A stretch of 64,000 bases of DNA from Asterella californica (Eukaryota > Streptophyta > Marchantiopsida > Marchantiales > Aytoniaceae): NCBI GenBank assembly GCA_036924285.1, contig JAYKYS010000005.1, positions 26,944,001 through 27,008,000 on the forward strand. Reading direction: 5' to 3'. The notes beneath the pieces are model-generated. The model had not been told where the DNA came from. It saw nothing but the letters and a program-made list of their open reading frames with translations, and did no database searches. Made by a program: the position numbers and the translations under genes. Of the stretch, positions 14,455 through 59,788 are shown one piece after another (within the stretch, counting starts at the first letter, position 1; each line of letters begins with the position of its first letter).

Positions 14455-14458
14455 ACGG
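14455..14458. repeat. Target-site duplication of A1 (left), ACGG
   Basis: Four bases directly before the A1 5' LTR. The same four follow the 3' LTR at 23368-23371. Confidence 0.9.
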
Positions 14459-15775
14459 TGTCGTGATGTGAATCATTTCACATAGTAAATGATTCACTTC
14501 TCTGTCAGGCATTAGTCTCTCTGAGTGAAGTTAAGACCTCAGAGAAGTCCGTTTTTGGAAGATGTTATATATTTTGAGTCTTAGTAGGTTGATTACCATG
14601 TTGATAGGGCTTAAGCCCATGGGTTGTATTTGCGTGTCGCCCATGCACGCTTTCTAGCTGATTTAAGTTATTTTTCGGGGCTGCGTATCGTTTTAGGTAG
14701 TTTAAGTTTTACGCTGGCACTCTAGGGGGCTTGACGTGGTAGCCTATGAGTGTAGATAAGTTACCACATGGTTTAAGGCACAAAATGACAACCAAATGGA
14801 GCTATGAATTCTCATTGGTTCATTTTTGTCTTTTGTGTAACTCTAAATTTAGAAACAGAGGTCTAAAGGGGATTTCGAGCAATTCGTAAGGGTACTTTGA
14901 AATCTGAGAGCACAGGGAGATAGAGCTCGTCGAGCCCACACTGTCAGCGAAAAAGTTGATCGATTTGGAGCAATAAACAAGGAGTTATGGCTGATTGAAG
15001 TTCGATTTGTGTCAGAATTGCAGCACTTCTGTTCAATTTGGGGTTTTGAGTGTCATTTGCAGCAGAATCGAGGAAAGCGCTTCAAAACTTCGTGGCTGTG
15101 TTCACTGTCAGCAGGGCTACGACTGTCACCAAAGTTTTATGTCGATTGAGTCAGTGAGTAATTCAGGGCGACCGCTGAAGTAGAGGGGGTCCGAAAAGCT
15201 CTGAATCTGGAGCAGCAACTTCAGAGAGTGAGATCTGGAGTTCTGTGTGGAATCAGGAGGCCCAATTTCACAGGAGTGTTCATCAAGCTGTGTACTGCAA
15301 ATCCTGTAAGAATTTCCCAAAGTGATCGAGCCAATTCCTTGTTATAGGTCGAAATAGCTGTTTGGGTACCAGAAACTGCCGTAATTTCTCTACTCAAAAA
15401 ATTTCTGCTCATATCTTAGTGCTTTGAATTGATCTGAAGCTGAAATTTCGTATGTGTATCCACTAGAACCTCATTTACATGTAGGAGGAGTTCTGAAGTC
15501 TGAACCTTCACATATTTGTCAATCCTGAGTGTCAAAGTTCGCCATCTGATCTTATCATTGCTAGTTAAGCCTGAACTTGCTTCGTGAACATATCAGAAGA
15601 GCCTAGAGACTTATATGAGTGTTTTTCAGTATCACCTTGAGACCTGAAGCCTATCCTGTGAGTAAACCAGCCACAGCCAAGAGCCCAACGCTTCCCCGAG
15701 TAGATTGAACACAGCCTTCAAGCTCATATCACAGCCAGAAGGTTCGCCCTTCTCAGAAAGACTCTCAACCCGACA
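14459..15775 (+). repeat. A1 5' LTR
   Basis: 1317 bp, starts TGTCGTGATG and ends CTCAACCCGACA. Near the start are an 11-bp stem (14468-14478 with 14487-14497) and a second stem (TCTCTGAG 14517-14524 with CTCAGAGA 14538-14545). The 62-aa open frame inside (14995-15183) recurs unchanged in the 3' LTR simply because the LTRs are duplicates; it is not called a gene. Confidence 0.95.
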
Positions 15776-15777
15776 TC

Positions 15778-15797
15778 TGGTGCTTCCACTGAGAGCT
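15778..15797 (+). other. A1 primer-binding site
   Basis: TGGTGCTTCCACTGAGAG starts 2 nt after the 5' LTR. It would pair with a tRNA ending ...GGAAGCACCA. The tRNA is not named with confidence (tRNA-Thr is one possibility). Confidence 0.6.
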
Positions 15798-15843
15798 CTT
15801 GGGGTGATTGATTGAGAAGGTTGAGTTGCTACAAGGAGAAGAG

Positions 15844-18399
15844 ATGGATCGCAAGAGCGGAGCTGCTGCTGCTGCCTCTGGGGCTGGAACATCAACGTCT
15901 ACTGCTGCACCGTCAACTGCACCTGCGTCTTCTACAGCGACATCTGCATCTGGTCTGGACACGGCGGAGATCTTGAAGACGCTTGCGGCCCTGGTCCAAC
16001 AGCATCCGATCGTTGGAGGGGGTGAGTTAAAATCCACCAAGGCTTTGCAAGCGATAGTGAATAGGTGTGGAAGGTTTGAAGATAGAGATATTTCTAGATA
16101 TCTGCGTGAGTATAGAGGAGAGATGGAGCTGGTTAGGGTTACTGATGCTGAGATGATAGCAAGTTTTGAGTTAGCTGTCATTCCTGAGTTGCGGGACCAA
16201 GTTAGGGATGTACAGAGAAGAAATCTTGGAATCTGGATGAGTTTTGAGCGATCTCGTCGAGAGGAGTTTCTTGAGGAGGATTCAGAGAGAGTTACTAGAA
16301 AGACATTTCTAGACTGGGTTGAGCAGCAACCTGGTCGTATTATGAGCCTGAGTGAGTTGCTGAGAGAGTTTGATCGGAGATACCGACAACTTTCAACTCT
16401 AGAGCGAATCACCTTAGATGCTAGGAAAATAGAGCTTTTCCTGCAGGCTACCGATGATGCTAGGGCAGATCGGTTATGTTTTATGTTGGCCGATCGATCT
16501 GCTGAGGGAGGTGTTACTATGGATTGGGGGAGAGTTGAGGATGCTGTGGCTGTACTGACGAGGCAGAGGAGGGGAAGAGTGGCTGTGGGAGGACGTCCGC
16601 TTGCAGAAGTGGTCACTCCACCTTATGCTGCTCCTCAAGTACAGCAGCCTTTGGCCCTTGCTCCCATACTTGTTGTCCCAGCTGTAGTTCCTTTGATGCC
16701 AGTTGTGCCAGCTCCAGCACAAAGGGCACCTGTTCAGAGATCTGCGGAGAACCATGGTCAACAGAACCAGATTGAAGACCTGATTCGGCAGATGCGAGAG
16801 CTGAAGGTAGAGCTAGCTGGATTGCAGAGAGAGCAGCCACCGGCGCCTGCTGTTGCACGTCCAGGAGGTGCTCCTGTTCGTAGATGTATCTGGTGTGACA
16901 GTCCTGATCACTTCCGAGGAGACTGTCAGGAGCTCACAGTTGCTTTGCGAGATGGTGTGCTTCGCTACCAGAACGGTAGACTGCACCTTTTTTCTACTGG
17001 AGAGCCGTTGAGCACGCAGTTTGGACGAGGAGGTATGAGGAGTCTACCTCAGATTGCTACAGCTGCAAAGGCAACTGCGTTGATGGCACCGCTGGTAAAT
17101 TCTGATGTGTATGCTGGGCATATTGAGGTCTCTTCTAGTCCTACGTTGCTAGATAGGACTGCTGAGAAGAGTATTGCCCCCGTTCCTTCTGAAGTACTGA
17201 AGAGGGGAGCCGAGTCTATTCGTAGGGTCACAGGATGGAGAGATTCTGTAGATGCTGCTTCTATCAGAGCATTCTTGGATGTAGATAGACACGTTCATTG
17301 ACAGGATGCTTTTGTGGAAGAGAAGAGGCGGCGAGAAGCCTCTGAACTTGATGTTGGAATTCCTGAGGAGACTGGAGATAGACGGAGAGTCACAAGGAGA
17401 CGAGCGGCTCTTCTTGAAGACATCCCGTCTACTTCTGCAGCTCCTCCACCTGCGCCAGGTCCTATGGAGGATGTGCAGAGATCCCAGCAAGAGCCAACGA
17501 CTGCTGATAGGCGGTTTACTGCCCAAGAGAAAGGGAAGGGACCGGCTTACAAGTTGGCAGCTGATATTGAAACTTCTACTGATCTGAAGAGTATCTTGGA
17601 GCAGAGGATACTGGATGCGCGAATCGAGTTTTCTCTTCGAGAAGTTCTTGGTATTGCAAAGAGGGAGTTTCACGAATTGATCATCGACATCATCAAGCGT
17701 AAGAGACAAGTGATGTCCGAGCAGGTAGAGAGTCAGATGATAGATGTAGTAGGAGCTTCTGTGAATGATGCAGAGTTTGGAAAGGTGCATTTTCAAGAAG
17801 CTGATGACAAGAGATACCAGCAAGAAGCGTTGGTTGCTGGTACCGACACTATTGAGTTCAACGATGAGGAAGCTGGTGAGGAGAGTCCAGCTAGTGAAAG
17901 TGATTTTAGAAAGAGACATTGGGCTCGTGCCACAACTGTTACGCGAGTTCGTCTTGGAAGTTTGGCTGAACCTGTTGCTGCTTTAGTTGATCACGGATCT
18001 GAGATCAACATCATGTCACGGGAGGTGTACGAGAGGGGTCAGTGGCCTATCGAGCTAAACCATGGTTGGGTGTTACGTGCTGCAAACAACCAGAAAGGTG
18101 AGCTATACGGCGCTTATCCTAACGTGAAGGTGAAGATAGGTGATGTGGATGTGGATCAACACTTCTTCGTGCAATCTTCTGCTTCATATCCTGTGATTCT
18201 TGGTCAGCCTTATATCACTACGGTTCGAATGGAGACCAAGGTGATGGATGATGGATCTCATTATGCTAGGATCCGTAGTCTAGATGATAGATGTTCTGTG
18301 CAGTTTCTGACCGTTCGTACGAACCACGAACGAAATCGTCAAACTTTGAGAGATTCTCCTATCTGTAAGGGTAAGGGTTTTCTGAAACCACTCTCGTAG
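15844..18399 (+). pseudogene. A1 gag-protease reading frame
   Basis: Gag and aspartic protease in one frame of 852 codons from the ATG (MDRKSG) to TAG 18397-18399, interrupted by a TGA at 17299-17301 where B and C have sense codons, so the TGA is decay. N-terminus Ala/Ser/Thr-rich; Gag helical part about residues 40-250; a CCHC zinc knuckle C-x2-C-x4-H-x4-C in RRCIWCDSPDHFRGDC. Protease near the end: HWARATT, ALVDHGSEINIMS (DHG where DTG/DSG is usual), then HFFVQSSASYPVILGQPYI and a tail NHERNRQ. The frame stops just where the RT frame begins one base back. The protein would assemble the particle and cut the polyprotein. Confidence 0.85.
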
Positions 18400-21300
18400 G
18401 ACGGGATAGCGAGAGTGATGGATCTACTGCTACTATGATCCCGCTTGAGCAGCCTGAGGGATCACAGGAGGTTGATGGAAAGGCTGCTCAAGATTCAGAA
18501 AGTAGTTGCACTGTGCATAGTTGGAAATCTGGGTTGATGGCTTTCAGTTCTGATGATTGGAGTGAGTTCACACGGATGGAGGATTTGACTGAGAAGAGTA
18601 GAAGACAGATGGAGAAGTGTGCAGCAAATCTGCATTGTACAGGAGTTCTGAAGGAAGATGAGATGATTTCTGGTGTTTATGAGGAGTTTGTAGGTGTGCA
18701 GTCTTTTGTTCGTTGGCTGGATGGTGTAGATAGGTTGATGGAACAGATGGGAGGTAGGGTGGTGATCCCCATCCATTCTCGTGAAGTCTATGAGGAAATT
18801 ATCTCATACTTGCGATATCGTCCTCATCCGAGACTAGAGAATGGATGGAAGGATGCAGTCTGTTGGTGTGGCTCTCATCAGGAAGCGGAAGTACACGCCA
18901 AGTATAAAGCTGTAGCGAGGAAGGTGAGACCTGTGGCGACCCAATTACCTGTTGATTCTCAGCAACAGATGGAGTTAGCGGCTGCTGAACCTGTGCTTAG
19001 AGATCCTACACAGGTAGGACACAAGTTTACTCAAGAAACACTTGAGCAACTCCAGATAGGAGGGGGTGGCTTCTTGACTGAAGAGGAGAAACGAGCTTTT
19101 GAGTAGATGATAGTTAGTCATGGTAAGGCATTTTCTTTCTCAGCTGAGGAGATTGGTTGTGTGGATCCTAGTGTGATAGCTCCGATGGTTATCTTCACTG
19201 TTCCTCATGTACCTTGGGACTTGAAGCCGATTCCAGTCCCTCGTGCTTTACTACCGAAGGTCATTGAGTTGCTGAAGAAGAGGGTACGAATGGGTATTCT
19301 TGAACCATCTATGGCTCCGTACTCTAGCCGATGGTTCACAGTACCTAAGAAGACAGGAGCTCTACGCTTCATCCAAGACTTGCAGCCTGCCAACAACATC
19401 ACGATTCGAAACGTTGGAACAGGACCTGTGGTTGATGAAGTAGCTGAGGCGTTTGCTGGAAGGTCAATCTATTCTATTGGAGATCTGTTTTCAGGTTATG
19501 ATCAGTTTCAGCTTGCTTTGGAGAGTAGAGACTTGACTACCATGCGTACACCTTTGGGATTGATGCGGATGTGCACTCTTCCTCAAGGTGCGACAAACTC
19601 AGTAGCCCATATGCAGAATGCGATGCATAAGGTGTTACGAGAGTTTGTACCTGAGGTCACTATCCCGTTTTTGGATGATATTCCAAAAGCTGTGACTTCT
19701 GATGGATGCAGAAAGTTCATTGCAGACCACATTCGGGATGTGGAGAAGATTCTGATGCGTTTGGAGGAGGTACACCTCACTCTATCAGGTACCAAATCTC
19801 GTTTTGGTATGTCAGAGATTGTGGTGGTGGGTCATTTGTGTGGTACTTTTGGGAGGCGTCCGAACCCAGAGAAGGTAGATGCTATAGCAAGAATAGCTGA
19901 CTGCACCAACATCACTGAGGTTCGATGGTTCTTGGGAGCTTGTGTGTTCTTTCGTGTGAGTATTCCTCATTATGCACACATTGTCGAGCCTCTGTATGCA
20001 CTTCTGAGAAAGGGAAGGAGGTTTACATGGCGACAAGAACATCATGAGACGATGGAGCAGCTAAAGGTGATTCTGAAGTCTCCACCTATACTAAGGAGGC
20101 TTAGCTACGAGAGCGGGAGACCTGTGGTACTGACTGTTGATACGAGTCCAAAGGTGATTGGATGGGCAGTTGGTCAAGAAGATGCAGAAGGTGTGCGGTT
20201 TGTTTCAAGGTTTGGAGCTCGGATCTTAACAGATAGACAACGTAACTATCCTCAAGTGAAGCGTGAGTTGTGGGGAGCTGTTACTGCTATGAAGGTAGAT
20301 CGAGAGTTCTTGATAGGAGCTCATGTGATACTAGAAACAGATTGTTTGCCTTTGTTGGGTATGATAGCAAACTGCAATACACCAGACATAGCAATGCTAC
20401 GATGGATTGCTTATGTCCGGAGTCTAAACCCTGAGCTAAAGCACATAGCAGGGAAAGACAATCCAGTTGCAGATATGTTGTCTAGGGCTCGTTATACAGA
20501 TGAGGATGAGATGTTTGCAGAGGTGGAGAATGAAGAGAAGAGAGACGTTTGGTGCCAAGTTGGTCAGCAGACTTCAGACTTGGAACCACTGCCGTTCAAT
20601 GAGAGGTTCTACTCAGAAACGTTCCACGATATTGGATTTTATCTGAGTTCGTTATCCAGGAGAGAAGGATGGAGTGATGCAGAGTTCAAGGAGATCAGAC
20701 GGAAGGCGTATAGCTACCTTCTACGTGAAGGTTATCTGTGGAAACGTCCGAAGAGAAGAGACGGGATGCTTGCTAGAGTGGTGGATGATCAACCGACGAA
20801 GCTGAATCTGCTGAAAGAGTTTCATGACACCTTGTGGGATGGACATCGTGGAGTATGGGCTACTTACACGAAGATGAAGGAGCGTTATTGGTGGAAGGGT
20901 TTGTATCAAGACGTGGTGGATTTTGTTGGGTCGTGTCTGCACTGCCAGTTCTACTCTAAAGTCCGTTACAGAGATGGACTTGTACCTACTTATCCACCTA
21001 GTATCCATTTTCAATGGGTTCTTGATCTTGTGATGATGCCACCGGGGTTATGGGGGATGCGTTATTTGGTGTTGGCTCGAGAGGATCTTTCCAACTATAT
21101 GGAGGGACGAGCACTACGACGAAGACTACAAAGAATATCTGCAGGTTCGTGCTAGAAGATATCATCTGTCGTTATGGATCGGTTGGGAGATTACGTGCAG
21201 ATAGAGGTGAGTTGAGAGGCGCTGAAGTGAAGGAGTTCTTTGCTCGTTATGGAGTAAAGCTTCGACTTACCACTGCTATGAATCCAGAGGGCATTGGTAA

Positions 21301-22003
21301 GAGTGAACGAGGACACCCTTCTATTGTTCATGCTTTAGTGAAAGCATGTGATGGTAGACCTAGAGAATGGTCGAGATTACTTCCATTTGCTTTGTGGGCG
21401 GATAGAACTACACACTGTACTACGACTGGCTATATGCCAGTTGAGCTTATGCTGGGGCAGAAACCGATCATGCCTGCTGAGGAGTACTTTCCTACATGGG
21501 CTACGCTATCGTGGGAGGATGATACAGATCGTGCTTCACTCCTTGCTTTACGTATTAGGCAGTTGGAGCGAAGGGAGGAGGATCTTGCTGATGCGCAGGA
21601 GAGGTTGAAGGTGGCTCGAGTCAAAAACAAAGAACATTTTGACAAGACTCACCGACTACGACCGAAGCCAATACATGTTGGTGAGTGGGTTCTGATATAT
21701 GATAGCACGTTGGAGAATCAGCATTCTACACTTCGTAAGTTCTCTCGAAGGTGGTTCGGGCCTTATGTTGTGCTAGATGTGTATGAGAATGCCACTTATA
21801 GTTTGCGTGAGTTGGATGGTACTCCTTTGAAGCTATCTGTGGCTGGCAAACGTGTGAAACTGTTCAAGAGACGCGGAGGGTCAATCGAGTTATTCAACTT
21901 TCTGGAGTCAGAGCTGAGGACAACAAGAGACGGAGACGTCCCAGTGTCTGATGAGACTGAGGCGGAGGAGAGCGATGATGATGAAGAACAAGCAGAAGAC
22001 TGA
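18396..22003 (+). pseudogene. A1 pol: reverse transcriptase, RNase H, integrase
   Basis: Starts in the -1 frame relative to gag-protease and runs to TGA 22001-22003, broken by TAG 19104-19106 and a frameshift near 21.11 kb. RT: VPRALLPKVIELL, WFTVPKKTGALRFIQDLQP, YSIGDLFSGYDQFQLA, LPQGATNSVAHMQNAMHKVL and FLDDI at the active site. RNase H: LTVDTSPKVIGWAVGQ, the E of KRELWG and the D of LETDCLPLLGM. Integrase: H-x6-H (FHDTLWDGH), C-x2-C (CLHC), then D in VLDLVM, D in RADRGEL and E in GKSERGHP. The second D and E are separated by 34 residues, not 35. The C-terminus (FGPYVVLDVYENATYSLREL, then GKRVKLFK) shows no chromodomain and ends very acidic. Confidence 0.88.
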
Positions 22004-22033
22004 GCAGGTTGGCACATGCCGGAGGATGTGCAG

Positions 22034-22049
22034 GTTTGGAGGGGGTGGA
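22034..22049 (+). other. A1 polypurine tract
   Basis: Purine-rich run with GGAGGGGGTGGA directly before the 3' LTR. The same position in B and C has a close variant. Confidence 0.8.
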
Positions 22050-23367
22050 TGTCGTGATGTGAATCATTTCACATAGTAAATGATTCACTTCTCTGTCAGG
22101 CATTAGTCTCTCTGAGTGAAGTTAAGACCTCAGAGAAGTCCGTTTTTGGAAGATGTTATATATTTTGAGTCTTAGTAGGTTGATTACCATGTTGATAGGG
22201 CTTAAGCTCATGGGTTGTATTTGCGTGTCGCCCATGCACGCTTTCTAGCTGATTTAAGTTATTTTTCGGGGCTGCGTGCCGTTTTAGGTAGTTTAAGTTT
22301 TACGCTGGCACTCTAGGGGGCTTGACGTGGTAGCCTATGAGTGTAGATAAGTTACCACATGGTTTAAGGCACAAAATGACAGCCAAATGGAGCTATGAAT
22401 TCTCATTGGTTCATTTTTGTCTTTTGTGTAACTCTAAATTTAGAAACAGAGGTCTAAAGGGGATTTCGAGCAATTGGTAAAGGTACTTTGAAATCTGAGA
22501 GCACAGGGAGATAGAGTTCGTCGAGCCAAGCACTGTCAGCGAAAAAGTTGATCGATTTGGAGCAATAAACAAGGAGTTATGGCTGATTGAAGTTCGATTT
22601 GTGTCAGAATTGCAGCACTTCTGTTCAATTTGGGGTTTTGAGTGTCATTTGCAGCAGAATCGAGGAAAGCGCTTCAAAACTTCGTGGCTGTGTTCACTGT
22701 CAGCAGGGCTACGACTGTCACCAAAGTTTTATGTCGATTGAGTCAGTGAGTAATTCAGGGCGACCGCTGAAGTAGAGGGGGTCCGAAAAGCTCTGAATCT
22801 GGAGCAGCAACTTCAGAGAGTGAGATCTGGAGTTCTGTGTGGAATCAGGAGGCCCAATTTCACAGGAGTGTTCATCAAGCTGTGTACTGCAAATCCTGTA
22901 AGAATTTCCCAAAGTGATTGAGCCAATTCCTTGTTATAGGTCGAAATAGCTGTCTGGGTATCAGAAACTGCCGTAATTTCTCTACTCAAAAAATTTCTGC
23001 TCATATCTTAGTGCTTTGAATTGATCTGAAGCTGAAATTTCGTATGTGTATCCACTAGAACCTCATTTACATGTAGGAGGAGTTCTGAAGTCTGAACCTT
23101 CACATATTTGTCAATCCTGAGTGTCAAAGTTCGCCATCTGATCTTATCATTGCTAGTTAAGCCTGAACTTGCTTCGTGAACATATCAGAAGAGCCTAGAG
23201 ACTTATATGAGTGTTTTTCAGTATCACCTTGAGACCTGAAGCCTATCCTGTGAGTAAACCAGCCACAGCCAAGAGCCCAACGCTTCCCCGAGTAGATTGA
23301 ACACAGCCTTCAAGCTCATATCACAGCCAGAAGGTTCGCCCTTCTCAGAAAGACTCTCAACCCGACA
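22050..23367 (+). repeat. A1 3' LTR
   Basis: 1318 bp, same ends as the 5' LTR, about a dozen differences including one 1-bp indel. Followed by the TSD ACGG (23368-23371). Confidence 0.95.
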
Positions 23368-23544
23368 ACGGTGTTTGGTTCCTCTTGCCCAATGGTTGTG
23401 AGAGTAATGACTCTTCTGTGATGCTTCCACCTCATCTTCAAACCTCACGTGATGATACGATCTCCCCTCTGATACTTGAGAGCAGTAACCAACAATCTCA
23501 TCTTCCTCATCTTTCGACAGTTTGGTCCATAGAGCGTTAAGCGT
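23368..23544 (-). pseudogene. R0 relic, short piece between gag and protease
   Basis: Minus-strand piece of R0 caught between A1 and B. It reads LNALWTKLSKDEEDE, then HHVRFEDE and SHYSHNHWAR, matching the Gag C-terminus/protease start of C (SNALDTRIS...VRFEDD...HYTRGHWAR). Its upstream continuation is at 59094 and beyond: joining the two at the GCGT site gives KILSEATTLNALWTKL in one frame, which proves the order. Its other end joins 14454 across A1. Confidence 0.88.
23541..23544. repeat. Target-site duplication of B (low side), GCGT
   Basis: Matches GCGT at 59094-59097, 35.5 kb away. One copy is part of R0 coding sequence. Confidence 0.88.
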
Positions 23545-25394
23545 TATCGTGTCAGATTTTGCGTGAAGGATGTCTAGGAAAACGTGAGGTTCTTGATTGT
23601 GGAGATGTTGTGTGCTGAAATAGAGACAACATAGAGAAAAACAACCACGAAAACGAATGCTGCGATATATACCAACTCCAAATGTATGTACACTGCCGGT
23701 TCTTTCTCCTAAGAGCACAAAACTGAGATACAGACCAGAGCGGTCTGTAACCTGCTTCAAAAGCCTCTAAAAACCAACCCTGAATCACAACCCTGACCCA
23801 AAACCACCGAAGCGTAGCTCAAAGCAAGAGAAAATTCCTTTTGCTAACAAACAGAGCTACAACAATATCACGCGATCCGAACCCAAGTCCAAACCACACC
23901 CATGTACAAGCTCTTAGCCAAGACTAGCTACCACAAGCTGTATATAGCCAACCAGAACTCTAACAAACTCAAAAGAGCAAAACCCGTAGCGAAGAAATCG
24001 AAAAAGGCCTATTTGAGAACTTCTTCCTTTCGTCGAACGAACTTCAGATGTCGATAGGGTCTCCTCCGCTGACTCCGTTAACCCAAGAAACCTTCAGATC
24101 CGACTCCCAACAGCCGAGATATTGTCGATTTTTTGTCGCAGGTGATCGAACCTTCAAAAACTCCTCCTTGCGGCTTAAAACTGTACACACCGCACAAACG
24201 GATCGTCTAAACTGATATCCGTCTTCTCTGGCAGATAGATCTAGCTATCACAAACCCAACGAGACTCCAAACAAGCCGTTTGGAGTTCTCTTTGCAAAAC
24301 CACGCAAGAAATTTGGTCGCAGGTTGTAAAAAATTGACGTAAATGGACTCCATGCAGCTCAAACTCGCTCACCTCACCCAAACCAACAATCCAATGCACG
24401 TATTGTCTTCTCTTACGTGTAGATGAAGACTCCCAGGTCGCATAGGCACCAAGAATGAAGAGCTTGGCACACTGATCGCGAAGAACAACCCAATTTTAAG
24501 TCGCAGACGATGAAAAATCTGACGCAAGCGCTTCCTTGCGGGCCAATTTCACTAAGAACTCCTAAACCGTCCGATGAAACTTGGTATCGTTTTCAATTTC
24601 TTGTAGAACTCGGTGCTCTGATCCCGATAGATCCAAGGACAGCAAGTTTTAGACTCCGGAACGGTCCGAACAGATAACTGAAAGATCTCCTTCACAGATA
24701 ACTGAAATCTTCAAATCTCCTTCCTACGTCTCAATTTCTCTCAGTACACATCCCCCGATCCGTCTCTTCTCAAACCGTCTTAACCTGTGCGTAATATGCA
24801 CAGATCTGAACCCGATGACACCTTGCGCGCGTGTATTGGACTCCCAATTCTCCAAAACGTCCACCGACAGATCGCAAGAACAAGCAAGTCCCTTAAGCAG
24901 CTCCCTTGTATCAGTCTCTATACGTACGAAGTTCTCTCAATAATAATGAAGCAGACCCCTTGCGTCTTTGATATAACGTCTGAAGCCTCAAATACCCATT
25001 CAGCAAGTAAACTAAGGCCCAGCTTGATTTTCTCTTCTTTCGAGTCGCATAACTTCTCCAGTAGGTGTCCAAATGAAGTAGACAAGATGCCCATAGAAAG
25101 CTGACAATGAGCTCTACCCATCTATGTGATGAAAGTGAAGATTCGAAGTTATGCCAAAAGTCCGTAAGCTGGGATCTAGCTTGTTTTATCCATCTTTCGA
25201 GTCATGTAACTTCTCCACTAGGCGTCCAAACGAAGTAGACGAAGTGCTTATGGAAAGCTGACAAGGAGCTCTACCCATCTATGCGATGAAAATGGAGATC
25301 TGAAATGATGCCAAAATGTCTTTCTCATGAGTGTCTTTGGAGCGACAAGCATCGAAGTCTAAATTTCAGATAGGAGCCGGTCCACGACACAACA
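23545..25394 (-). repeat. B 3' LTR
   Basis: 1850 bp. On the minus strand it starts TGTTGTGTCGTGG and ends ...CACGATA. The low edge is fixed by comparison with the 5' LTR at 57261 (both TATCGTGTC on the plus strand, different bases outside). Open frames inside (for example 23552-23788 minus) recur in the other LTR and have no recognised domain. Confidence 0.92.
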
Positions 25395-34406: not shown

Positions 34407-34409
34407 AAA

Positions 34410-48158: not shown

Positions 48159-48877
48159 TATGCACCAGAGATACCAACCAAGGAGTGGACTGGCTTATCG
48201 TCCTACTTCTCATCGTAGCCAACCTCACCTTCAAGATCTTCTGCATAATCCTCATCCTCAAACTGAAACTGAAACTCCGTCAAGATATCTGCTAGATCGA
48301 CCTCCTCATCTCTCTTTTTGAAAATCTTGACACGTTTACCTGCCACTAGTACCTTCAAGCTCGTTCCATCCAACTCTTGCAAGGCGTAAGTTGCGTTGTC
48401 ATGAACCTTCTTCACCATATACGGATCAAACCATCGCCTGGAAAACTTCGGAGTGCACTATGCTGGTTGTCTAGACTGTTGTCATAGACTAACACCCAAT
48501 CACCTTCCTTAATTTCCCTAGGTCTCAAACGATGTCGCTGATCAAATTTGACCTTGTTCTTCAACCGTGCTTCTCGCAACTTATCCAAAGCAGCTTGGAT
48601 ATCCTCAGGTCTTCTCTCTAACTGCCTAATTCGAATCGCAAGAAGCTCTTCCCTAATCAAATTGTCCTCTCAAGGTAACACACTCCACGTCGGAACATGT
48701 TCTTCAATCGACATGATAGGTTTCTGACTTGTGATGAGTTCCACTAGCATGTAACCTATCACCGAGCTATGTATCGTTCGATCTGCCTATAACGCAAATG
48801 ATAAGAGTCGAGGTCATTTGCGCACCTTCCTGTTGCAGGCCTTCACCAAAGCCTTCACAATGGGCGGATGACCGCGT
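48159..48877 (-). pseudogene. B pol, integrase C-terminus
   Basis: Minus strand. From the high end: GHPPIVKALVKAC (following SER across G), then EELLAIRIRQLERRPEDIQA, KEGDWVLVYDNSLDNQHSAL, YALQELDGTSLKVLVAGKRV and KIFKKRDEEVDLA, ending in an acidic tail. Frame changes near 48415 and 48660. Confidence 0.85.
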
Positions 48878-50610
48878 TGTCGTGATGTGAATTATTTCAC
48901 ATAGTGAATAATCCATCTCTCAATTAGAAGTTAGTGTCTCTGAGTGAAGTTAAGACCTCAGAGAAGTCGATTCTGGAGGAAGTGAGCATTCGAAAATCTG
49001 AAAACACCACGGTGTAGGTCTCGTCGCGCTGATCACCGTGGTATGTTCAAAAGTTGCAAACGGAGTTGCAGGCGAAAAGTTACTTGGAGTTCTTCTACAA
49101 GATTTCTGATACCGGGAAATTTACCATAAATCAGAGTGAGTTCGAAAAATACTTTTTAGATTTTTCTCATGTAGATTGTAGTATGTAGTATTTGTTTAAA
49201 ATTCGAAATGTACAAAAAGAGCATGTCTAGAGAAAGTTATGGCATTCCGTGTTAGCAAAGGAAAGATGAAATACCACAGCTTTCTAGCATATTAGCTTAG
49301 AAACTGGTCTTCAAAACCAGTTGTGAGATCAGCTTCCGTGGTGTAGCTGAGAAACTTGTAGGGAGGAGGTCTCCGGATCAAATCCCTTCAGACTCACAAC
49401 CGGCTTGGAGTAGGCTGGCCCCTTCGGGGGAATATGAGGGGCACCAAGTTGCCTAGGGGCGGGACACTAGATGTCCCTTAAACGTACCGTGAATGCGGGA
49501 CGCCTCCGTCTAACCCTGCACTAGTGCAGTCACCTAGTGTGGATGCTAGAGGGAGATTACCACCGGGTTTCAAAATGGACCTCTCATCTTCGGGTTGACG
49601 GGGTAATTAATACGAATTCGGTTGCGGTCCTCTAAGTCTTGAGGTAGCGAGATGACATCAAAGATACTCCAAGTTGGTACCAATTCTTTTGTAGAAAAAT
49701 GTAGAGCTCGATATACTATTCACTTGGGTCGAAAAATCAAGTGAAACTGATACTTGAGGCCATACTTACGGCACTTCGAAGTTTAAGGGGGCCGGAAAAC
49801 GACAATGGTGATAACTCGAGCTCCACGTGTCAGAACGAGGTGATTCCGGTGGCCAGAGGTAGCCGTAGTGGAGTTACTTCGGATGGACATGGTAGATGCT
49901 GACTGTACGGCCGAAACGGTGGCCGTCCGTACAGATGAATCTGCGAAGCTTAGTGAAATAGTCTTCTTACGTGTAGATATATTATCATTGATTTGTTTTT
50001 CTGCTGCCATCTGTTTAGGGCGTCTTTTACCCCTGCCAAGTGACACTGAAGGTTACGTAGGGTGGAGGAAAACCCAGAGGGGTGTACTCCAGAGAGAGAG
50101 AATTCTCAGTCCAGTATCGAATTATCGCATTATCGCAGTTTACCGATCATCGAGCAGTGTAGAGTTTACCGTGCGGAAGCTATCGAGTAGAGAGAAACAG
50201 TAGAACTGAGGAGAGAAGTTTTTACAGAGACTACGTCTGAAGAGATTTTCTGACTGATCAGAGTCTTGACATCGAGAGATTGAGCTTAGTAGACAGAATC
50301 GAGTAGAGAGGAGACCTACAACTTGTACGCATACTTTTCTGAAAAGAAAACGGGAAGCTTCTAGATGAACGCGCTGGTGCTTCACAGGAGCAGTTTTCTG
50401 ATATTCCGAGTCCTTGAGCGTGAGCTTTTCAATCTGCATGATCTGGAGTTGAAGATCTACTTGCACGCCGTGTATTTTACCTTGGCCAGATCGAAATCGT
50501 GGTGGTGTGTTCTCTTGCGGTCCGTATTCCGTGTGTAGTTTTCGTCCTCCCCTTCACGATCGTATCACTGCTAGAAGGTTCGTCCTTCCCAGGAAACTCT
50601 CGCCTCGACA
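48878..50610 (+). mobile_element. G: solo LTR in the integrase of B
   Basis: 1733 bp, TGTCGTGATG...CTCGCCTCGACA, TSD GCGT at 48874-48877 and 50611-50614. Removing it restores NVKSERGHPP in B. The first ~90 bp match the A1 LTR closely, including both small stems; the rest is diverged. Orientation is plus. The interior holds a GC-richer block (49330-49680) that may be a SINE-like insertion. The loss of internal sequence is the usual result of LTR-LTR recombination. Confidence 0.93.
49338..49396 (+). repeat. Possible tRNA-derived SINE head inside G
   Basis: GTGGTGTAGCTGAG resembles a pol III A box and GGATCAAATCCC (49375-49386) a B box, about 35 bp apart, as in tRNA-derived SINEs. The following GC-rich 280 bp is absent from the A1 LTR. 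No poly-A tail or TSD was established. Confidence 0.3.
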
Positions 50611-52729
50611 GCGTTCACTCTTGACATTCCCTTCGGGGTTGTAAGCAGTTGTCAGTGACAACTTCACCCCACACCTTATAAAGAATTCACGAGCCTCATG
50701 TGCATCTAACTCTCCTCGATCTGCAGTGATCTTTCCCACACATCCATATCGACAAACAATCTCTTCCAAGAGAAATCTACATATCCCTTCAGTTGTCTTT
50801 GTCTGAAGCGTCATACCCTCGACTTGATTTGAAAGATCTTCTCTAGCAAGTACCAAGTATCTCATCTGCCACAATCCAACCGGCATAATCACCAAGTCCA
50901 CCACCCACTTGAAGTGGACTGCCAACGGATAAGTCGGGTGTAATCCGTCACGATGTCGGATGTTCGACTACATCTGACATGTCAAACAAGACTCCACAAA
51001 AGATACAACATCCATATACATGTTTTTCCCTCAATATCGCTCTTTCATCTTGGTAAAAGTGACCCAAATCCCTCGATGTCCAGCCCAAAGACTCTCATGA
51101 AATACCTTGAACAACTTCTGCTGATTTTCTTTGTCGTAAATCACTCGTAGCGGTACCCCACCTTTCTGCTTCGGTCGCTTCCAAAGAAACCCATCCCGCA
51201 ACATGAAGTTGTAGGCCTTTCTTCGAACTCTCCAAAACCTCTCATCCGTCCAAGTTGTCTGCTTAACCATCGTACTAAGGTACCTTCCAATGTCAAGCAA
51301 ATCACCATCATACAATCCTTCAACAAACAACTCATCTTCTCTTCCTGTCTGTGCAATTGAATAGAACTTTGCACCCACGTCGTCAATATCTTCAACCATC
51401 TCATCCTCCCCATCACAGCGAGCTCGAGATAACATATCTGCCATCGGATTATCCTTCCTTGCAATGTGTCTAAACTCCAGGTTCAACGACTTGATATATG
51501 CGATTCATCGTAACATCGCAATATCAGGAGTTGAACAATTCATGATCATCCCAAACAACGGCAAGCAATCAATTTCAACCACCACTACTGCTCCAATCAA
51601 ATACTCTTTCTCAGTTTTCATAGCTGAAACAATACCTCACAGTTCTCTCTTCACTTGCGAGTAAGCACGTTGTCGAGCACTTAACACCTTCGCTCCGAAC
51701 CTAACCGCAAACCTGTCTCCATCCTCATCATCTTGTCCGACTGCCCATCCAATTGCAACTGGACTTGTATCCATAATAAGAACCACCGGCCTAGCACCCT
51801 TGTAATCAATCCTTCCCAGAACTGAAAGAGATGATAGTAAAGACTTCAGCTTCATTACCGCATCAGTATGCTCTTCTTCCCATCTGAACTTATGACCCTT
51901 ACGCAACAATCCATACAATGGATCCGCCACATGCGCATAATGAGGAATTCAAATGTGGTTGAATACACAAGCACCCAAAAATCTTCTTACTTCTGTCAGC
52001 GAGTTGCAAACCTCCTTCATCCTTCCAATCGCATCCACCTTGTTCGGATCCGGCTTCCGACCAAACGATCCACACAAATGACCAACGATCAAAACCTCTC
52101 TAACCCCAAATGTAGACTTCGCACTTGACAGCGTAAGATGAACTTCCTCAAGTCGAGATAAGATCTTCTCACAATCTGTGATGTGATCGGTGACTTATCA
52201 CCGACACCTCCTCTGATCTAATGCTTCATCCTTCTCATCTTCCACACATCATTTGATGGGGATGTCATCCAAGAACGGCATCGTCTTTTCAGGGATGAAG
52301 TCTCTTAGAACTCGATTGATCCCGTTCATCATGTGTGCTACCGAGTTGGTAGCTCCTTGTGGTAAAGTACACATCCTAACCAACCCCAAAGGTGTCCTCA
52401 TTGTCGTGAAGCTTCTGCTCTCCTCCGCTAGTTGAAACTGATCACACCCTGAGTAAAGATCTCTCATTGAGTAAACGCTTCAGCAAACTCATCCACAATC
52501 GATCCCACCCCAGCATTTCTGATTGTTACTACGTTCACCGGTTGCATGTCTTGGATGAATCGCAACGATCCATTCTTCTTAGGCACTGTAAACTATCTGT
52601 TCGAATACGGTGCAAACGACGGCTCCAAGATCTTCATCCGCATCTTCTCCTTCAGCAACTCCACTAGTTTGGGCAAGTGAGCCCATGGTACTGGATTGGT
52701 CTCAGGTTCCAAGGCACATGCGGTACCGT
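50611..52729 (-). pseudogene. B pol: RT C-terminal part, RNase H, integrase core
   Basis: Minus strand, from the high end: RT around 52700-52249 (MRDLYSGCDQFQLAEESRSF, LPQGATNSVAHMMNGINRVL, TMPFLDDIPIK); thumb with frame changes near 52200 and 51950; RNase H 51930-51637 and 51486-51031 (MDTSPVAIGWAVGQDDEDG, RHIARKDNPMADMLSRARCD); integrase zinc part (FHESLWAGHRGIWVTFTKMK) and core 50925-50611 (FKWVVDLVIMPVG, KITADRGELDAHEAREFF, SLTTAYNPEGNVKSER; 34 residues between D and E). Cut by G after SER. Several frame changes and stops. Confidence 0.87.
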
Positions 52730-54123
52730 TGTCGGAGTGTGATCCGTCTACCTAGAAAAGCGCCGGGCTTCTGGCTGTGGTTGTTTACTCAAGAGGTTGG
52801 CTTTCAGGTCACAACAGGGGCCATAAACACTCACACAGTTGTGTAAGATCTAATAATATGCTCAGAAAGCGAAATTCAAGTCTAGTTGGCAGTAATAGGT
52901 TCCGACGGTGAACTTTGACACTCACGGAGAGGAAAACTATGAAGGTTTAGACTTCTAAACTTCCCCTACATGCAAATGAGGTACTACTGAACTCACACAC
53001 GAAGTTTCAGCCTGAGATCAAATTCTGACACGGAGATATGGACAGAAAAGTTCTGAGCAAGAAAACTACGGCAATTTCTGGTACCTAGATGGCTATTTCG
53101 ACCTATAACAGAAGATTGGCTCGATCAATTTCAAATATTCCTACAAGATTTGGAGTCTACAGGATGCTGAACACCCCTGTGAAATTGGGACTCCTGAATG
53201 TACACAGAACTCCAGATCTCCTCCTCTGAAGTCGCTGCTCTAGATTAAGAGCTTTTCAGACCCCTTCTGCTTCAGCGGCCGCCCTGAATTACTCAGTCAC
53301 TCAATCGATATGAAACTTTTTGGGAAACCGTAGCCCTGCTGGCAGAGAACACAACCTCGAAGTTTTGAAGCAATTTCCTCAAATCTGCTGCCAGTGACAC
53401 TGAAAACCCTAAATCCAACAAAAGTGATTCAATTCTGGCACAATTCGAACTTCAATTGATCATAACTTCGTCTTTATTGCCTCAAATCGATCGAAAATTT
53501 CACTGGAAGTGCTTGGCATGACGAGCTCTACCCTCGTGTGCTCTCAGATTTCTAAGTCCCCTCACCAAATGCTCGAACTCTCCTTTAGAGCTATGTTTCT
53601 AAATTTAGAGTTAAACTAAAGACAAAAACAGACCAATGGGAGTTCATAGCTCTACTTGGTTGTCCTTTAGTGCCCTAATCCACGTGGTAACTCAACTTCA
53701 CTCAAAGGCTACCACGTCAGCCCCTAAAGTGCCAGCGTAAATCTTAAACTTCACGCGAAGGCATGTAAAATAACACGTAACCCTAAAAGATAACTTAACC
53801 AATCTAGAAAGCGTGCATGGGCCACAAGTAAGTACAACCCATGAGCTTAAACCTCTATCAGCATGGAAATCCTAAGTTATGTACTTTCACAACATAGATA
53901 AGCATGATATCCTTTGCACAAGCGCAAGAGTGCTTGAACAAGATAGATAACATACTATCAACCTACTAAGACTCAAAATATATAACACAATAGTGTCAAC
54001 ACCGTATGCAAAGATGTCAAACATATGTATAAAGGACTAGAAGTAATATGAGCTAACTTCTAGAACTACTAAACTCAAGCGTCGGAGTAGAAGTCAAGCA
54101 TGTAGCCACCAAGTAGCGCGACA
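52730..54123 (-). mobile_element. H: solo LTR in the RT of B
   Basis: 1394 bp, plus-strand ends TGTCGGAG...GCGCGACA, TSD CCGT at 52726-52729 and 54124-54127. By comparison with the A1 LTR its orientation is minus: the reverse complement carries TATATATTTTGAGTCTTAGT near the high end. Removing it gives VIFTVPHVPWNLRPIP in one frame in B. H and LTR I form a subfamily distinct from A1 and G. Confidence 0.92.
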
Positions 54124-54127
54124 CCGT

Positions 54128-57100
54128 GAAGATAACCATCGGGGTAACAACGTACGGGTCTACACACCCAATCTCATGTGGCTCAAAAGCAAATGCTTTC
54201 CCATGTCGTGAAAGCATCTCCTTGAAGCACATCCTCTCTTTTGGTAGAAGAGATCCATCAGATCCAATCTTCAGCTCTTCAAGGATCTTCTCCGTGAACT
54301 TGTGTCCTATCATTGCAAGATCTATCAAACTCTTTTCTCTTGAAGCTCGATCCATCTGTTGGTTAGTGTCTTCCGGCAAAGGACCAGCAACTGACTTTAT
54401 CTTCTTATCCAATGTCTTGTGCCTTGTCTCAACTCGAACCTCCGGTGCACAAAATGATTCGATCACCGAATAGACCTCCCTTGAATGAATCTGCACAACC
54501 TTATCCATATCCTCCCATCCAATAGACATGATCACTCACAAAGGATCCTCCAACCCATCCTCTTCATAAACACCATAAATCCATTCATCCCTTTCTAGCT
54601 CACCCAACTCTTTCATCATCAACTCAACATCACGCAAATGTTTTTGTTCTTTTCTCCTCAGCTCTTCTATCTTCTTGTAAATAGCAATCCCACACTCTGA
54701 AAACCCAACAAACCCTGTACAAAAGACACTATCTCCATCAAGCGAGAGTACCTTCTCCTGCGCACCACCACAATCCCGCTCTATAGTGGTACTCAACGAA
54801 AATCCTTGAACTCTTCACTCACCCTTGGAAGCGGTTTCTCCTTCAAACGATCTCGATTGCGCTCGTGATTGGACGGTACAGTCAAGAACTGTACCGCTCT
54901 CTTCTCATCTTGACTTCGGATCCTAGCATAAGCAGATCCATCGTCTAGTACCTTTGTCTCCATCCGAGTTGCTATGATGAAAGGTTGACCAAGAATGAGC
55001 GAGTATGATGTTGCTTCCTGAACAAAGAAGTTTTGCTCGATAGCAACATCACCTACGCGCACTCTGATGTCTGGACAAGCTCCATACAAGTCTCCTCTTG
55101 TGTTGTTGACTGCTCTTATGACCCACCCATGCTCTGTGTCGATCGGTCACTTCTTCCTCTTGTACAACTCCTTCGACATGATGTTGATTTTTGATCCATG
55201 ATCGATCAGAGCAACCACCGGTTCATCCAAGTCTCCGATTCTCACCAACGTCTCCGTTGTAGCTCGAGCCCAGTGACTGTGGCTGTAATGACTTGAGGTC
55301 TGCTTCCCTTCCTCCTCTTCATCCTCAAAATGCACCTTGCGTCTTCGATCTCTTTTTTCCTCTGGAGAATAAACATTGCACTTTGCAAGCTCTCTCTCTC
55401 TTCATCCACAAACATCCTAGTATCCAAAGCATGTGATAAATCAGTCTCACTCGTAATCTGTCGTTTCCGTTTGATGACATCGATGATGACATCATGAAAC
55501 TCACGCTTAGCAATGCCCAACACTTCCCTCAAGGTAAACTCCACCTTCGCATTCAAAATGCGATCTTCCAAGACTCCCTTCAAGTCTGTTGAAGCTTCGA
55601 TGTCCGACTGTAGTTTGTATGCAGCCGGCTTACCCTTCTCCATCTGAAACTCCTTTGCTCTCTCTTTCGATGGAGAAGGAGCATCATCCATCGGTAGATC
55701 TTGAGCTCTTGCATCTCGAAGCTCTTGACGAACCTTCTCCCCTCGAGTCTGTCTCTTGGAAGAAGTTCTTTCCTGTGCATCCTCTGAATCTCGTCTTCTC
55801 TTCTCTTCCAACAAGATTGTTGGTTCTTGACGATGTAAGCATGCACCGATAGAGCTTCTATCGGATCCTCCCATCCAGTATCTTTCCGGATTGTAGCAGC
55901 TGTTCTCAGCAACGTCTCACGTGTCATCTTCTCTTTCTGTTTCATGGAGATGGCACATGACCACAATCCACTTGGCTCAACTTGCACGTTAAAACCTCTC
56001 TCAGCTTGATCCTCAACTCTCGTGCCATAGGTTCCAGCTTCCACCATTGCAACTGCTTGCGCTGATAGGTGGTCCTCAACCAACTTCTTCATCCCTCCTC
56101 TACCAAAGTTGGTCTGAAGAAGTGCACCAGTATCCCTCAGTGCTACCTTCCCATCCTTCCAGAAGATCACTCCTTGCTGCAGAATATCAGTGAACTCCTT
56201 GTAATCTCTGCGCGGATGATCAGTACCATCGCACAAGATACACCGCTGGATCCAGCCTTGCTTCTCAACCGGTCTTGCTCCGCTTGTAGATCTCTTCTCT
56301 TCCAGTCATGTGAGCTTGATCTGCAGATCTCGCATTCCACGCAAAATCTCCTCAAGGTTTGAATCATCCTTCTTCGGAGATACCATAGGTGCCTGAACAA
56401 CTGGAACAACTGGTACTATCTGTCTAGCAACAGGAACCACTGGTCGGACTACAGGAACATGTGTTACAGCTGTAGGTGTTGACGTTAGTCTCCTAACCTT
56501 CTCTCGTCTCCGCTCTCTCTTGGTAAGCAGACCAACAGCTTCCTCAACCTTCTTCTAGCTACTGGTCAATCCATCGTCCTCCTCTCGGTCTTCTAGAAGT
56601 ACCTCTAGCTTCTCCTGCAACTTCTCATCTGTAGCCCGAAGAAATAGCTCTGTCTTGTTGGACTGCAACGTCAACTTCTCTATCCTGGTCAGCCGTGAAA
56701 ACTGCTTCTCAAACTCTCTGAGCAACTCAATAGCTTGTAGACCTTTCCTTGATTGCTCAACCCACTCCAAGAATGACTTCTTGGTGACTCGATCAGAGTC
56801 CTCCAAGAAGTACTCATCCATCAAGACACGATCAAAAGTCTCTCAATCCTTGTTAAAATGCTTCGTTAGCATTTTAACATGATCTCTAATCTATGGAGCT
56901 GCTGTTAACTTTAACGTCTCAATCATCTCATCTTCTGAGACCCGGTTCAGCTCCATCTCCTTCACATAATGCCTCAGATATCTTGAGACATCTCTCTCAT
57001 CAAACTGGCCAATCTTGCTGACCATCGCTTGTAACGCCTTTGTTGTCAAAGCTTCTTACCGCTCATCAGACTGTTACTGTCGTAAGAACATAGAGAAAGC

Positions 57101-57260
57101 TTGGAACATCGATGCAGTCGCCGGATCCAATTGCACGTTCGACAACCCACCTGAACCACTAGCTCCATCTCCATCACCTTTCCCTTCCCACTCATGATTG
57201 CCAATCTCTTCTTCAAAGTTCACGCACACAAGAAATCTCCACCCCAGACTTTCACCACCA
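54128..57260 (-). pseudogene. B gag-protease and start of pol
   Basis: Minus strand, from the high end. Primer site 57260-57242 (TGGTGGTGAAAGTCTGG). Gag N-terminus with stops near 57070 and 56860 (LDPATASMFQAFSMFLRQ, KALQAMVSKIGQFDERDVSR), 56824-56555 (KSFLEWVEQSRKGL), knuckle at 56236 (CDGTDHPRRDY, last Cys replaced by Tyr), 56236-55242 (QTNFGRGGMKKLVEDHL, AYKLQSDIEASTDLK). Protease 55335-54793 (HWARATTETLVRIGDLDEP, ALIDHGSKINIMS, QNFFVQEATSYSLILGQPFI), stop TGA 54795-54793. The pol frame opens at 54796 in -1 (STTIERDCGGAQEKVLSL), leading to HGKAFAFEPHEIGCVDP, cut by H. Confidence 0.87.
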
Positions 57261-59093
57261 TATCGTGTCGGATTTTGCGAGAAGGATGTCCAGGAAAACG
57301 CGAGGTTCTTGGCTGTGGAGATGTTGAATGCTGAAACAGAGACAAGACAGAGAAAAACAACCACGAAAACGAATGCTGCGATATATACCAACTCCAAATG
57401 TATGTACACTGCCGGTTCTTTCTCCTAAGAGTACAAAACTGAGATATAGACCAGAGCGGTCTGTAACCTGCTTCAAAAGCCCCTAAAAACAACCCATGAA
57501 TCACAACCCTGACCCAAAACCACCGAAGCGTAGCTCAAAGCAAGAGAAAATTCCTTTTGCTAACAAACAGAGCCACAACAGTATCACGCGATCCGAACCC
57601 AAGTCCAAACCACACCCATGTACAAGCTCTTAGCCAAGACTAGCTACCACAAGCTGTATATAGCCAACCAGAACTCTAACGAACTCAAAAGAGCAAAATC
57701 CGTAGCGAAGAAACCAAAAAAGGTCTATTTGAGAACTTCCTCCTTTCGCCGAACGGACTTCAGATGTCGATAGGGTCTCCTCTGCTGACTCCATTAACCC
57801 AAGAAACCTTCATCCGACTCCCAACAGCCGAGATATCACCGATTTTCGGTCGCAGGTGACCGAACCTTCAAAAACTCCTCCTTGCGGCTTAAAACTATAC
57901 ACACCGCACAAACGGATCGTCTAAACTGATATCCGTCTTCTCTAACAGATAGATCTAGCTATCACGAACCCAACGAGACTCCAAACAAGCCGTTTGGAGT
58001 TCCCTTTGCAAAACCACGCAAGAAATTTGGTCACAGATTGTAAAAAACTGACGTAAATGGACTCCCTGCTGCTCAAACTCGCTCACCTCACCCAAACCAA
58101 CAATCCAATCCACGTATTGTCTTCTCCTATGCGTAGATGAAGACTCCCTGGTCGCATAGGCACCAAGAATAAAGAGCTTGACACACCGATCGCGAAGAAC
58201 AATCCAATTTTAAGTCGCAGACGATGAATAACCTGACGCAAGCGCTTCCCCGCGAGTCAATTTCACTCAGAACTCCTAAACCGTCTGATGAAACTTGGTA
58301 TCGTCTTCAATTTCCTGTAGAACTCGGTGTTCTGATCCCGATGGATCCAAGGACAGCAAGTTTGGACTCCGAAACGGTCCGAACGGTCCAACTCTCCTTC
58401 ACAAGTAACTGAAATCTCCAAATCTCCTTCCTGCGTCTCAATTTCTCTTAGTACACATCTCCCGATCTGTCTCTTCCCAAACCATCTTAACTTGTGCGTA
58501 GCCTGCACAGATCTGAACCCGATGACACCTTGCACGCGTGTATTGGACTTTCCAGTTCTCCAAAACGTCCACCGACAAGTCTCAAGAACAAGCAAACCCC
58601 TTAAGCAGCTCTCTTGTATCAGTCTCTGTACGTACGAAGTTCTCTCAATAATAATGAAGCAAGCCCCTTGCGTCTTTGATATAACGCCTGAAGCCTCAAA
58701 TACCCAATCAGCAAGTAAACTAAGGCCTAGCTTGATTTTCTCTTCTTTCGAGTCGCATAACTTCTCCAGTAGGTGTCCAAATGAAGTAGACAAGATGATT
58801 ATGGAAAGCTGACAACGAGCTCTACCATCTATGTGATGAAAGTGAAGATTCGAAGTTGTGCCAAAAGCTCGTAAGCTGAAGCCTAACTTGTTTTACCCAT
58901 CTTTCGAGTCTTGTAACTTCTCCACTAGACGTCCAAACGAAGTAGACGAAGTGTCTACCCATCTATGTGATGAAAATAGAGATCTGAAATGATGCCATAA
59001 GTCCGTAAGCTAGGGCCTAGCTTGTCTTTCTCATGAGTGTCTTTGGAGCATCGAAGTCTGAACTTCAGATAGGAGTCGGTCCACGACACGACA
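57261..59093 (-). repeat. B 5' LTR
   Basis: 1833 bp. On the minus strand it starts TGTCGTGTCGTGG and ends ATCCGACACGATA, directly followed by the primer site TGG. Homologous to 23545-25394 with about 5% differences by sampling. Confidence 0.92.
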
Positions 59094-59788
59094 GCGTAGT
59101 TGCTTCACTCAAAATCTTACGTTTCCTCTTGATGATATCTATGATAACCTCATGAAACTCACGCTTTGCTATCTCAAGAATCTCACCTAAAGTAAACTCA
59201 ACCTTCCCATTCAAGATTTGATTCTCTAATACTTGCTTCAGATCTATAGCAATCTCAATTTCAGACTGAAGTTTGTATGCAACTGTCTTATCCTTCTCCT
59301 TGCTTTTCTCCTTCTCTTTGGTGTTGTAGGTGGTACATCCTCCATAGTCTTCTCACGAGTAGGTGTTGTCTCTTGTCTTGTCTTTGGTCTAGTCCTTTCA
59401 CTCCTCGTGGTAGACCGTTTGGATGTAGAAGCCTCACATGCATCTTCCTTCTTGCATTTTTCTTCTAGTACAGCCTCACGATGACTCCATGCAACATAAG
59501 CATGCACTGACATAGTATCCACATTGTCATCTCATCCTGTAGTTTCTCGAATTGAGTTGCCAACCCTCTGTAGTACATCTTTTTTAGCTCTGTTCTAGTT
59601 ATGGATCTCACTACATTAGATCACAACCCAGTAGTCTCCTTTTCTCTCTCCATTTTCACTTTCACTCCACAAGTAGCAGCATCCATAAGAAAACAACATG
59701 TGATGCAGATATTTCATTTACAAGTCTTTTCATACCACCCTTGCCAAGTTGGTTCCCAACATCATCTCAGTCTCTCTCAATTGGATCT
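59094..59788 (-). pseudogene. R0 relic, gag part
   Basis: Minus strand, from the high end: IQLRETEMMLGTN (compare VALRDTGALLQTN of B), GMKRLVNEIS, a degenerate stretch, then MSVHAYVAWSHREAVLEEKC (compare VHAYLTKSQHEALMEEK of C), QLHTNFSLKL, LREILEIAKREFHEVI, DIIKRKRKILSEATT. Continues in frame at 23544 once B is removed. Cut at its upstream end by LTR I. The GCGT at 59094-59097 is the B TSD. Confidence 0.83.

Follow-up and report, generated by a model that had tools for sequence, protein, structure and literature searches.

In Asterella californica (Marchantiopsida), a lineage of Ty3-type long terminal repeat (LTR) retrotransposons inserts almost exclusively at NCGN, i.e., it leaves a four-base target-site duplication with CG in its middle. 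The elements were encountered in a 64,000-nucleotide stretch of contig JAYKYS010000005.1 (assembly GCA_036924285.1, positions 26,944,001 to 27,008,000, forward strand; hereafter the window, in which all plain positions below are counted), where element A and its relatives B, C, G, H and I represent the lineage and a further Ty3-type element, D, provides a control, while the searches covered the whole genome (516,715,530 bases in 773 contigs). A first-pass annotation of the window had noticed the CpG-centred duplications, and this observation is confirmed genome-wide: the duplication is 4 bp long, central CG is found at 84-86% of the host-side starts of two families together with a palindromic preference in the outer bases, and many of the exceptions are CGs that have decayed to TpG or CpA. 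For elements of this kind it is a much tighter target rule than usual, although one with precedents; in general, LTR retrotransposons and retroviruses have weak base preferences (PMC5408687, PMC4176367; these papers and those cited below are drawn on in excerpt).

The finding is carried by counts of LTR starts. Exact matches to the first 27 bases of the family A LTR number 1,429, and 440 of them have GGA in front; since GGA is the end of the polypurine tract (PPT), these 440 starts belong to 3' LTRs. In the other 989, CG stands at positions -3/-2 in 830 (83.9%), another pyrimidine-purine (YR) step in 120 (12.1%; 950 YRN minus 830) and neither in 39 (3.9%). Family G, with an LTR of about 1.84 kb (TGTCG...CGATA) that was counted by exact matches to a 30-base start, has 590 starts, 328 of them preceded by CGN and 210 by GGA, which puts CG at 328 of 380 non-PPT starts (86%). 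On contig C1, the 76 family G starts divide into 39 with CGN, 30 with GGA (13 of these assigned by coordinates only) and 7 with neither, three of which read ATGT, CCAG and ACTA. Four more G-, C- or H-like LTR copies in fetched loci are preceded by CCGG, ACGT, ACGT and GTGC, the last of which is possibly a decay product. The local frequency of NCGN is 3.45% (928 occurrences in 26,876 bases, from 31 flanks of family A that include element A's own). Counted genome-wide, CG at the LTR starts thus lies far above a local background of about 3.4%.

Within the window, the five two-sided duplications from which the rule had been read, those of A, B, C, G and H, were re-read at both ends as 4 bp long and CG-centred, and the two flanks that had been reported on one side only, TCGT and ACGT, are present as claimed. 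The duplication GTAC, named as an exception at element D, was likewise re-read on both sides, and for ACGTTA, given as the duplication of a further exception, element E, an exact search for this string followed by the C LTR end returned a single copy only. The features are as follows.

11824..11827, + strand, ACGT beside an LTR stub starting at 11828, one side only (flank re-read)
14455..14458, + strand, target-site duplication ACGG, left of A (flank re-read)
14459..23367, + strand, element A, 8,909 bp, LTRs of 1.32 kb at 14459 and 22050, TGTCG...CGACA (boundaries, Pol domains)
23368..23371, + strand, target-site duplication ACGG, right of A (flank re-read)
23541..23544, + strand, target-site duplication GCGT, beside the G 3' LTR (flank re-read)
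23545..59093, - strand, element G, ends TGTCG...CGATA; 3' LTR 23545-25394 (after PPT), 5' LTR 57261-59093
25422..25425, + strand, target-site duplication CCGG, left of C (flank re-read)
25426..48154, + strand, element C, interrupted by D and others; 3' LTR 46717-48154 after PPT, ends CGATA
27579..35209, - strand, element D, Ty3-type control family, LTRs identical; target-site duplication GTAC at 27575-27578 and 35210-35213
48155..48158, + strand, target-site duplication CCGG, right of C (flank re-read)
48874..48877, + strand, target-site duplication GCGT, left of B (flank re-read)
48878..50610, + strand, B, 1,733-bp unit TGTCG...CGACA, first ~100 bp A-like LTR
50611..50614, + strand, target-site duplication GCGT, right of B (flank re-read)
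52726..52729, + strand, target-site duplication CCGT, left of H (flank re-read)
52730..54123, - strand, H, solo LTR, A-related (about 79% over 1.1 kb)
54124..54127, + strand, target-site duplication CCGT, right of H (flank re-read)
59094..59097, + strand, target-site duplication GCGT, beside the G 5' LTR (flank re-read)
63293..63296, + strand, TCGT beside the 5' LTR of element I, one side only (flank re-read)

The insertions are nested, with G holding H, B and C, and C holding D. The two LTRs of element A differ at 11 of 1317 aligned sites, and B appears to be either a solo LTR or a non-autonomous unit. Two LTRs carry additional sequence: about 963 bases of the C 5' LTR (25897-26859), bordered by a repeated CTT, are absent from the C 3' LTR and may represent an insertion or, alternatively, a deletion of another kind, and about 2.1 kb of the element I LTR (60521-62633), including a tandem repeat rich in CGAAGT at 61.9-62.1 kb, have no match in related LTRs.

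The starts without CG are informative as to how the site is chosen. One rival to a rule for CG is a rule of DNA flexibility only, in which any central pyrimidine-purine step would be preferred and CG would be just one of them; CG is such a step, and the integrase of prototype foamy virus (PFV), which makes 4-bp duplications, prefers central YR steps (PMC4176367). Among the first 100 family A starts listed with a YR step, however, the non-CG steps number 17, and all are TG or CA and none is TA, which is the pattern that CpG deamination gives and, because TA is missing, makes flexibility alone unlikely. Compared by eye, the first 100 starts listed comprise 50 with CGN, 34 with GGA and 16 with neither; when the 16 were fetched, 11 proved to be NTGN or NCAN, two LTR-internal, one a PPT variant and two something else (CCCA, AGCT), so that 61 of the 63 host-side starts in this sample either have CG or lie one deamination step away. 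A search for the partner flanks of the 11 decayed sites located four, and all of these keep CG (ATGG/ACGG twice, ACAT/ACGT and ACAG/ACGG). A flexibility rule also sits badly with the supply of sites, as CG makes up 84% of the starts yet only 389 dinucleotides against 1,589 TG plus CA in 23 flanks (TA uncounted). We consequently regard a simple preference for YR steps as very improbable. Decayed duplications with TG or CA remain recognisable, which makes old insertions easier to annotate.

Reading both ends of individual elements leads in the same direction. In the fetched A-family loci, CG is in register in 29 of 31 host flanks at the 5' side and in 21 of 25 at the 3' side, the latter including two odd ends in L024, one of them probably a false match of the end motif; most of these loci come from the best 40 of 1,260 candidate copies by score, a choice that favours young copies. 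In 20 A-family elements the four bases could be read on both sides, five of these having been picked for a non-CGN 5' flank. Eleven pairs are identical (one of them the 6-bp TGCCGT, which flanks a family A solo LTR, L042, at C207:28899651 as direct repeats of six rather than four bases), in six the only difference is a C-to-T or G-to-A change within the CpG, in two it lies at an outer position (CCGA/CCGG, ACGG/TCGG), and the last pair is a mismatch (AGCT/GCGT). Where flanks were read in part, two more elements agree and one does not.

The rule extends beyond the CG itself. At 29 CG sites with strands pooled, the base 5' of CG is A in 32 cases, C in 10, G in 15 and T in 1, against a background of 24.6% A, 20.2% C, 21.0% G and 34.3% T (chi-square p 7e-9), and in the first 100 family A CGN starts listed, CG is followed by T in 63, C in 18, G in 14 and A in 5 (counted by eye). 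The most frequent sites in the 31 A-family 5' flanks are ACGT (8), CCGT (6), ACGC (5), GCGC (3) and GCGT (3). The target is a palindrome, V-CG-B, in which ACGT is favoured and T-CG and CG-A are avoided; further out, 50 unique CG flanks, taken from both ends and de-duplicated, give only a weak signal.

One could object that the CG belongs to the element ends because the boundaries were misplaced, or that a single locus was duplicated and gave rise to the sites. There is something to both points: the LTR ends themselves carry CG (TGTCG...CGACA), CG is missing from diverged paralogs of the H site and of the A site, and one flank recurs in a tandem array. In this array, three A-family copies, L028-L030 (C526:10659241, 10667092 and 10674943), are spaced by 7,851 bases and have an identical left flank, as in a tandemly duplicated stretch. 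Against such an error speak the outer bases, which vary among sites and match on both sides of most elements, the 3' LTRs, which are preceded by GGTGGA-like tracts and not by CG, and the 50 distinct CG flanks that are left after de-duplication. The uninterrupted paralogs of the insertion sites provide another argument. When the flanks of an element were joined with one 4-bp copy and aligned across the junction, spanning paralogs were found for A, B, H and D (for example, window 46077-45819 for B, 38707-38465 for H, and 47753-48052 at 98% for D), with no gap in the displayed stretch for B, H and D and a 2-base gap just downstream for A; at the B site, CG is present in 9 of 11 rows. The statement in the first-pass annotation that every site of the family is backed by empty or restored sequence is accordingly borne out by paralogs for A, B and H but not for C and G, for which no true spanning paralog was found (the join for G is no true site). 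What these paralogs support is the size of the duplication and its single copy before insertion rather than the letters of the original site, on which they are silent because they are diverged copies and not pre-insertion alleles. Overall, we give hardly any credence to a wrong boundary or a duplicated locus, and both were rejected, together with the simple YR rule, on the variety of the flanks, the tracts before the 3' LTRs and the missing TA.

Element D shows that the rule is not a property of all Ty3-type elements in this genome. Like the A lineage it has a Ty3-type Pol and makes 4-bp duplications, but CGN precedes only 3 of its 787 exact LTR starts (internal LTR ends included), and NCGN is absent from all ten D elements for which both ends were read. 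Their 4-bp sites, such as GACT, GGCC, GTCC, GTAC and GGTC, suggest a target of roughly GNNC, although the ten are not all independent, since two share one flank in a duplicated segment and three lie at one and the same position within A/H-like LTR sequence; one of the ten was read by eye and one has non-matching sides. The comparison with D-type elements that the first-pass annotation had also proposed therefore finds the CG rule absent from D. The element has one open 1,615-amino-acid frame on the minus strand, in which the DxG-X motif reads DRGR, and its Pol is 27% identical to that of A over 648 aligned positions. The three insertions at one place (L089, L091 and L101 on contig C1) are in both orientations, and the corresponding positions in the window are 14817, 22408, 53605-53631 and 62776; possibly, this is a hotspot of D insertion within the LTR of another family.

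Element A is a Ty3/gypsy LTR retrotransposon (Metaviridae) by the order of its Pol domains, its LTRs, its PPT and its target duplication. A single open reading frame (ORF) of Pol holds RVT_1 (111-243), RNase H (308-435) and Integrase_H2C2 (564-615) according to Pfam, and rve gives a weak match, below the cut-off (E 0.012), in the next ORF, the integrase core being spread over two overlapping frames in this copy. In the relatives that were scanned, the order reverse transcriptase-RNase H-integrase is kept in 7 of 7 and rve is present in 6 of 7, and no chromodomain was detected by Pfam in these seven or in four ORFs of A. The PPT, GGGGGTGGA, stands just before the 3' LTR, the stretch TCTGGTGCTTCCACTGAG or a near variant directly 3' of the 5' LTRs of full copies (9 ends), where a tRNA primer-binding site would be expected, and the LTRs end in TG...CA, with TA instead in G and C. 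Among the protein matches listed for the Pol of A, one from the liverwort Riccia sorocarpa is closest (73% identity); bursts of Ty3 elements have been described for Lunularia cruciata (PMC9985172). The second ORF of A (17302-18396), ahead of a protease-like region, matches Pfam DUF4100 (E 3e-6).

Taken together, we think it probable that a Ty3-type lineage without a detected chromodomain integrates with a four-base stagger centred on CpG. Most likely, the integrase reads the bases of the CpG directly at the bend: the integrase complex itself would recognise CpG while bending the target at its centre, as that of PFV does at a YR step, but through contacts specific to the bases that would tolerate hardly anything other than CG, and the preference would be an enzyme property that the A, B, C, G, H and I families share by descent. 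A relative that is 69% identical to A over the query, P0007, has a Pol homologous to that of Ty3 and an integrase that aligns with those of Ty3 and PFV. At the position that we take to be that of PFV Ala188, going by alignment to the PFV integrase and its numbering, a conserved acidic residue is found in 60 (E in 53, D in 7) and K in 1 of the 61 relatives with a readable motif among 120 listed. The PFV enzyme, besides its preference for a central pyrimidine-purine step in 4-bp duplications, contacts neighbouring bases via Ala188 and Arg329 (PMC4176367).

Several observations weigh against this explanation. By the PFV/human immunodeficiency virus model (PMC4176367), the residue at the Ala188 position would meet bases three outside the joining points and not the central CG. 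Furthermore, the evidence consists of old insertions rather than de novo ones, and the exact-match patterns favour young copies. The search for host-side partners found none for 7 of the 11 decayed sites, the fetched stretch holding the primer-binding side or no LTR end. At the diverged paralogs, CG is found in none of 14 rows for H and in neither of the 2 for A (A's own flank excluded). Finally, exceptions exist, namely GGGA (L007), CCCA (L052), ACTA (L125), AGCT against GCGT (L061/L084), a CGG 5' flank against TACT (L080) and the 6-bp duplication of L042.

It has further to be asked whether the CG matters as a base sequence or as a site of methylation. Since target CpGs decay to TpG or CpA as methylated CpGs do on deamination, they were probably methylated at some time, perhaps after insertion. 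Among paired-LTR differences, 39 of 206 are transitions at CpG (six alignments of five LTR pairs; the D pair is identical). In an alternative explanation, the integrase or a bound host factor would recognise 5-methylcytosine and steer insertions to silenced DNA, the base rule being a by-product. The 120 of 989 A starts with other YR steps, the 17 of 17 listed that are TG or CA and the four of four partners with CG all agree with this, as does the CpG observed/expected ratio of 0.64 in 23 flanks. Moreover, 9 of the 31 A-family flanks, one of which is the window's own, match retroelement proteins, and 16 match these or repeats of the window. A 1992 paper by Kitamura is said to treat how CpG methylation affects the integration of retroviruses in vitro, and we count it on the same side. 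On the other hand, methylation after insertion could explain the decay, a tether alone would not set the register to one base pair, and TCG and CGA are avoided though common in the flanks, which fits base readout; in addition, a review describes lentiviral integration as disfavoured in CpG-methylated regions (PMC3185549). We consider this alternative unlikely, and hold the same doubt towards its strongest form, in which the integrase itself reads 5-methylcytosine in CpG and thereby homes to silenced DNA at single-base resolution without a chromodomain. If it were true, the lineage would carry a built-in sensor of methylated DNA.

As such, the interpretation offered in the first-pass annotation survives in part. 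The CpG-centred four-base choice stands in two LTR families genome-wide and is absent from D. The suggestion that methylated CpG is preferred does not follow, because decay tells nothing about methylation at the time of insertion, nor does the idea that the rule favours nesting, as the 16 of 31 repeat-like flanks, the window's own among them, were scored against a small library without a random-site control. That no Ty3-type family with such a rule had been described was too strong a claim as well, in view of the ZAM group and Ginger1.

With more than 1,000 natural insertions, the near-exclusive CpG rule offers a clean system for identifying integrase residues that set the target sequence, in which family D is an internal contrast with the same genome and stagger and another motif. 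It also allows a direct test for the reading of CpG methylation by a retroelement. A scan of viral contigs found no relatives of the lineage, and in the open-licence literature, as far as its excerpts reach, no Ty3 family of a plant that targets CpG almost exclusively came to light; PMC12810828, PMC10787394 and PMC5784723, likewise in excerpt, do not concern the rule. The PFV integrase resembles that of the A lineage in the 4-bp stagger, the central YR step and in sequence similarity to the integrase of the A relative, but it has a YR preference and not a near-exclusive one for CG (PMC4176367). Plant LTR retrotransposons with 4-bp duplications show GC-rich central dinucleotides in a survey of 12 genomes, which is an average over many families and, in the excerpt, reports no near-exclusive CG rule (PMC6911290).

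Two systems are precedents, both set beside A by description. Errantiviruses may carry env, whereas element A, with 46 bases from its last listed ORF to the 3' LTR, leaves no space for it. Those of the ZAM group in Drosophila have, like A, a Ty3-type integrase and a palindromic, sequence-specific target that contains CpG, but this target is CGCG, with GC in the centre rather than NCGN, and the hosts are flies (PMC5408687); for ZAM itself, a 4-bp duplication is given at three sites (PMC3276498). None of the 31 A-family 5' flanks is CGCG. Ginger1 is without LTRs or reverse transcriptase, whereas element A has both, and ACGT is the commonest site of the A family. Part of the Ginger1 transposase resembles the Gypsy integrase over its full length (PMC2836005), and Ginger1 and the A lineage share this type of integrase, a CpG-centred 4-bp duplication and TGTNR ends. 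What sets Ginger1 apart is that it is a DNA transposon with terminal inverted repeats and a narrower motif, its targets being CCGG in 75% and CCGT or ACGG in 24% (PMC2836005).

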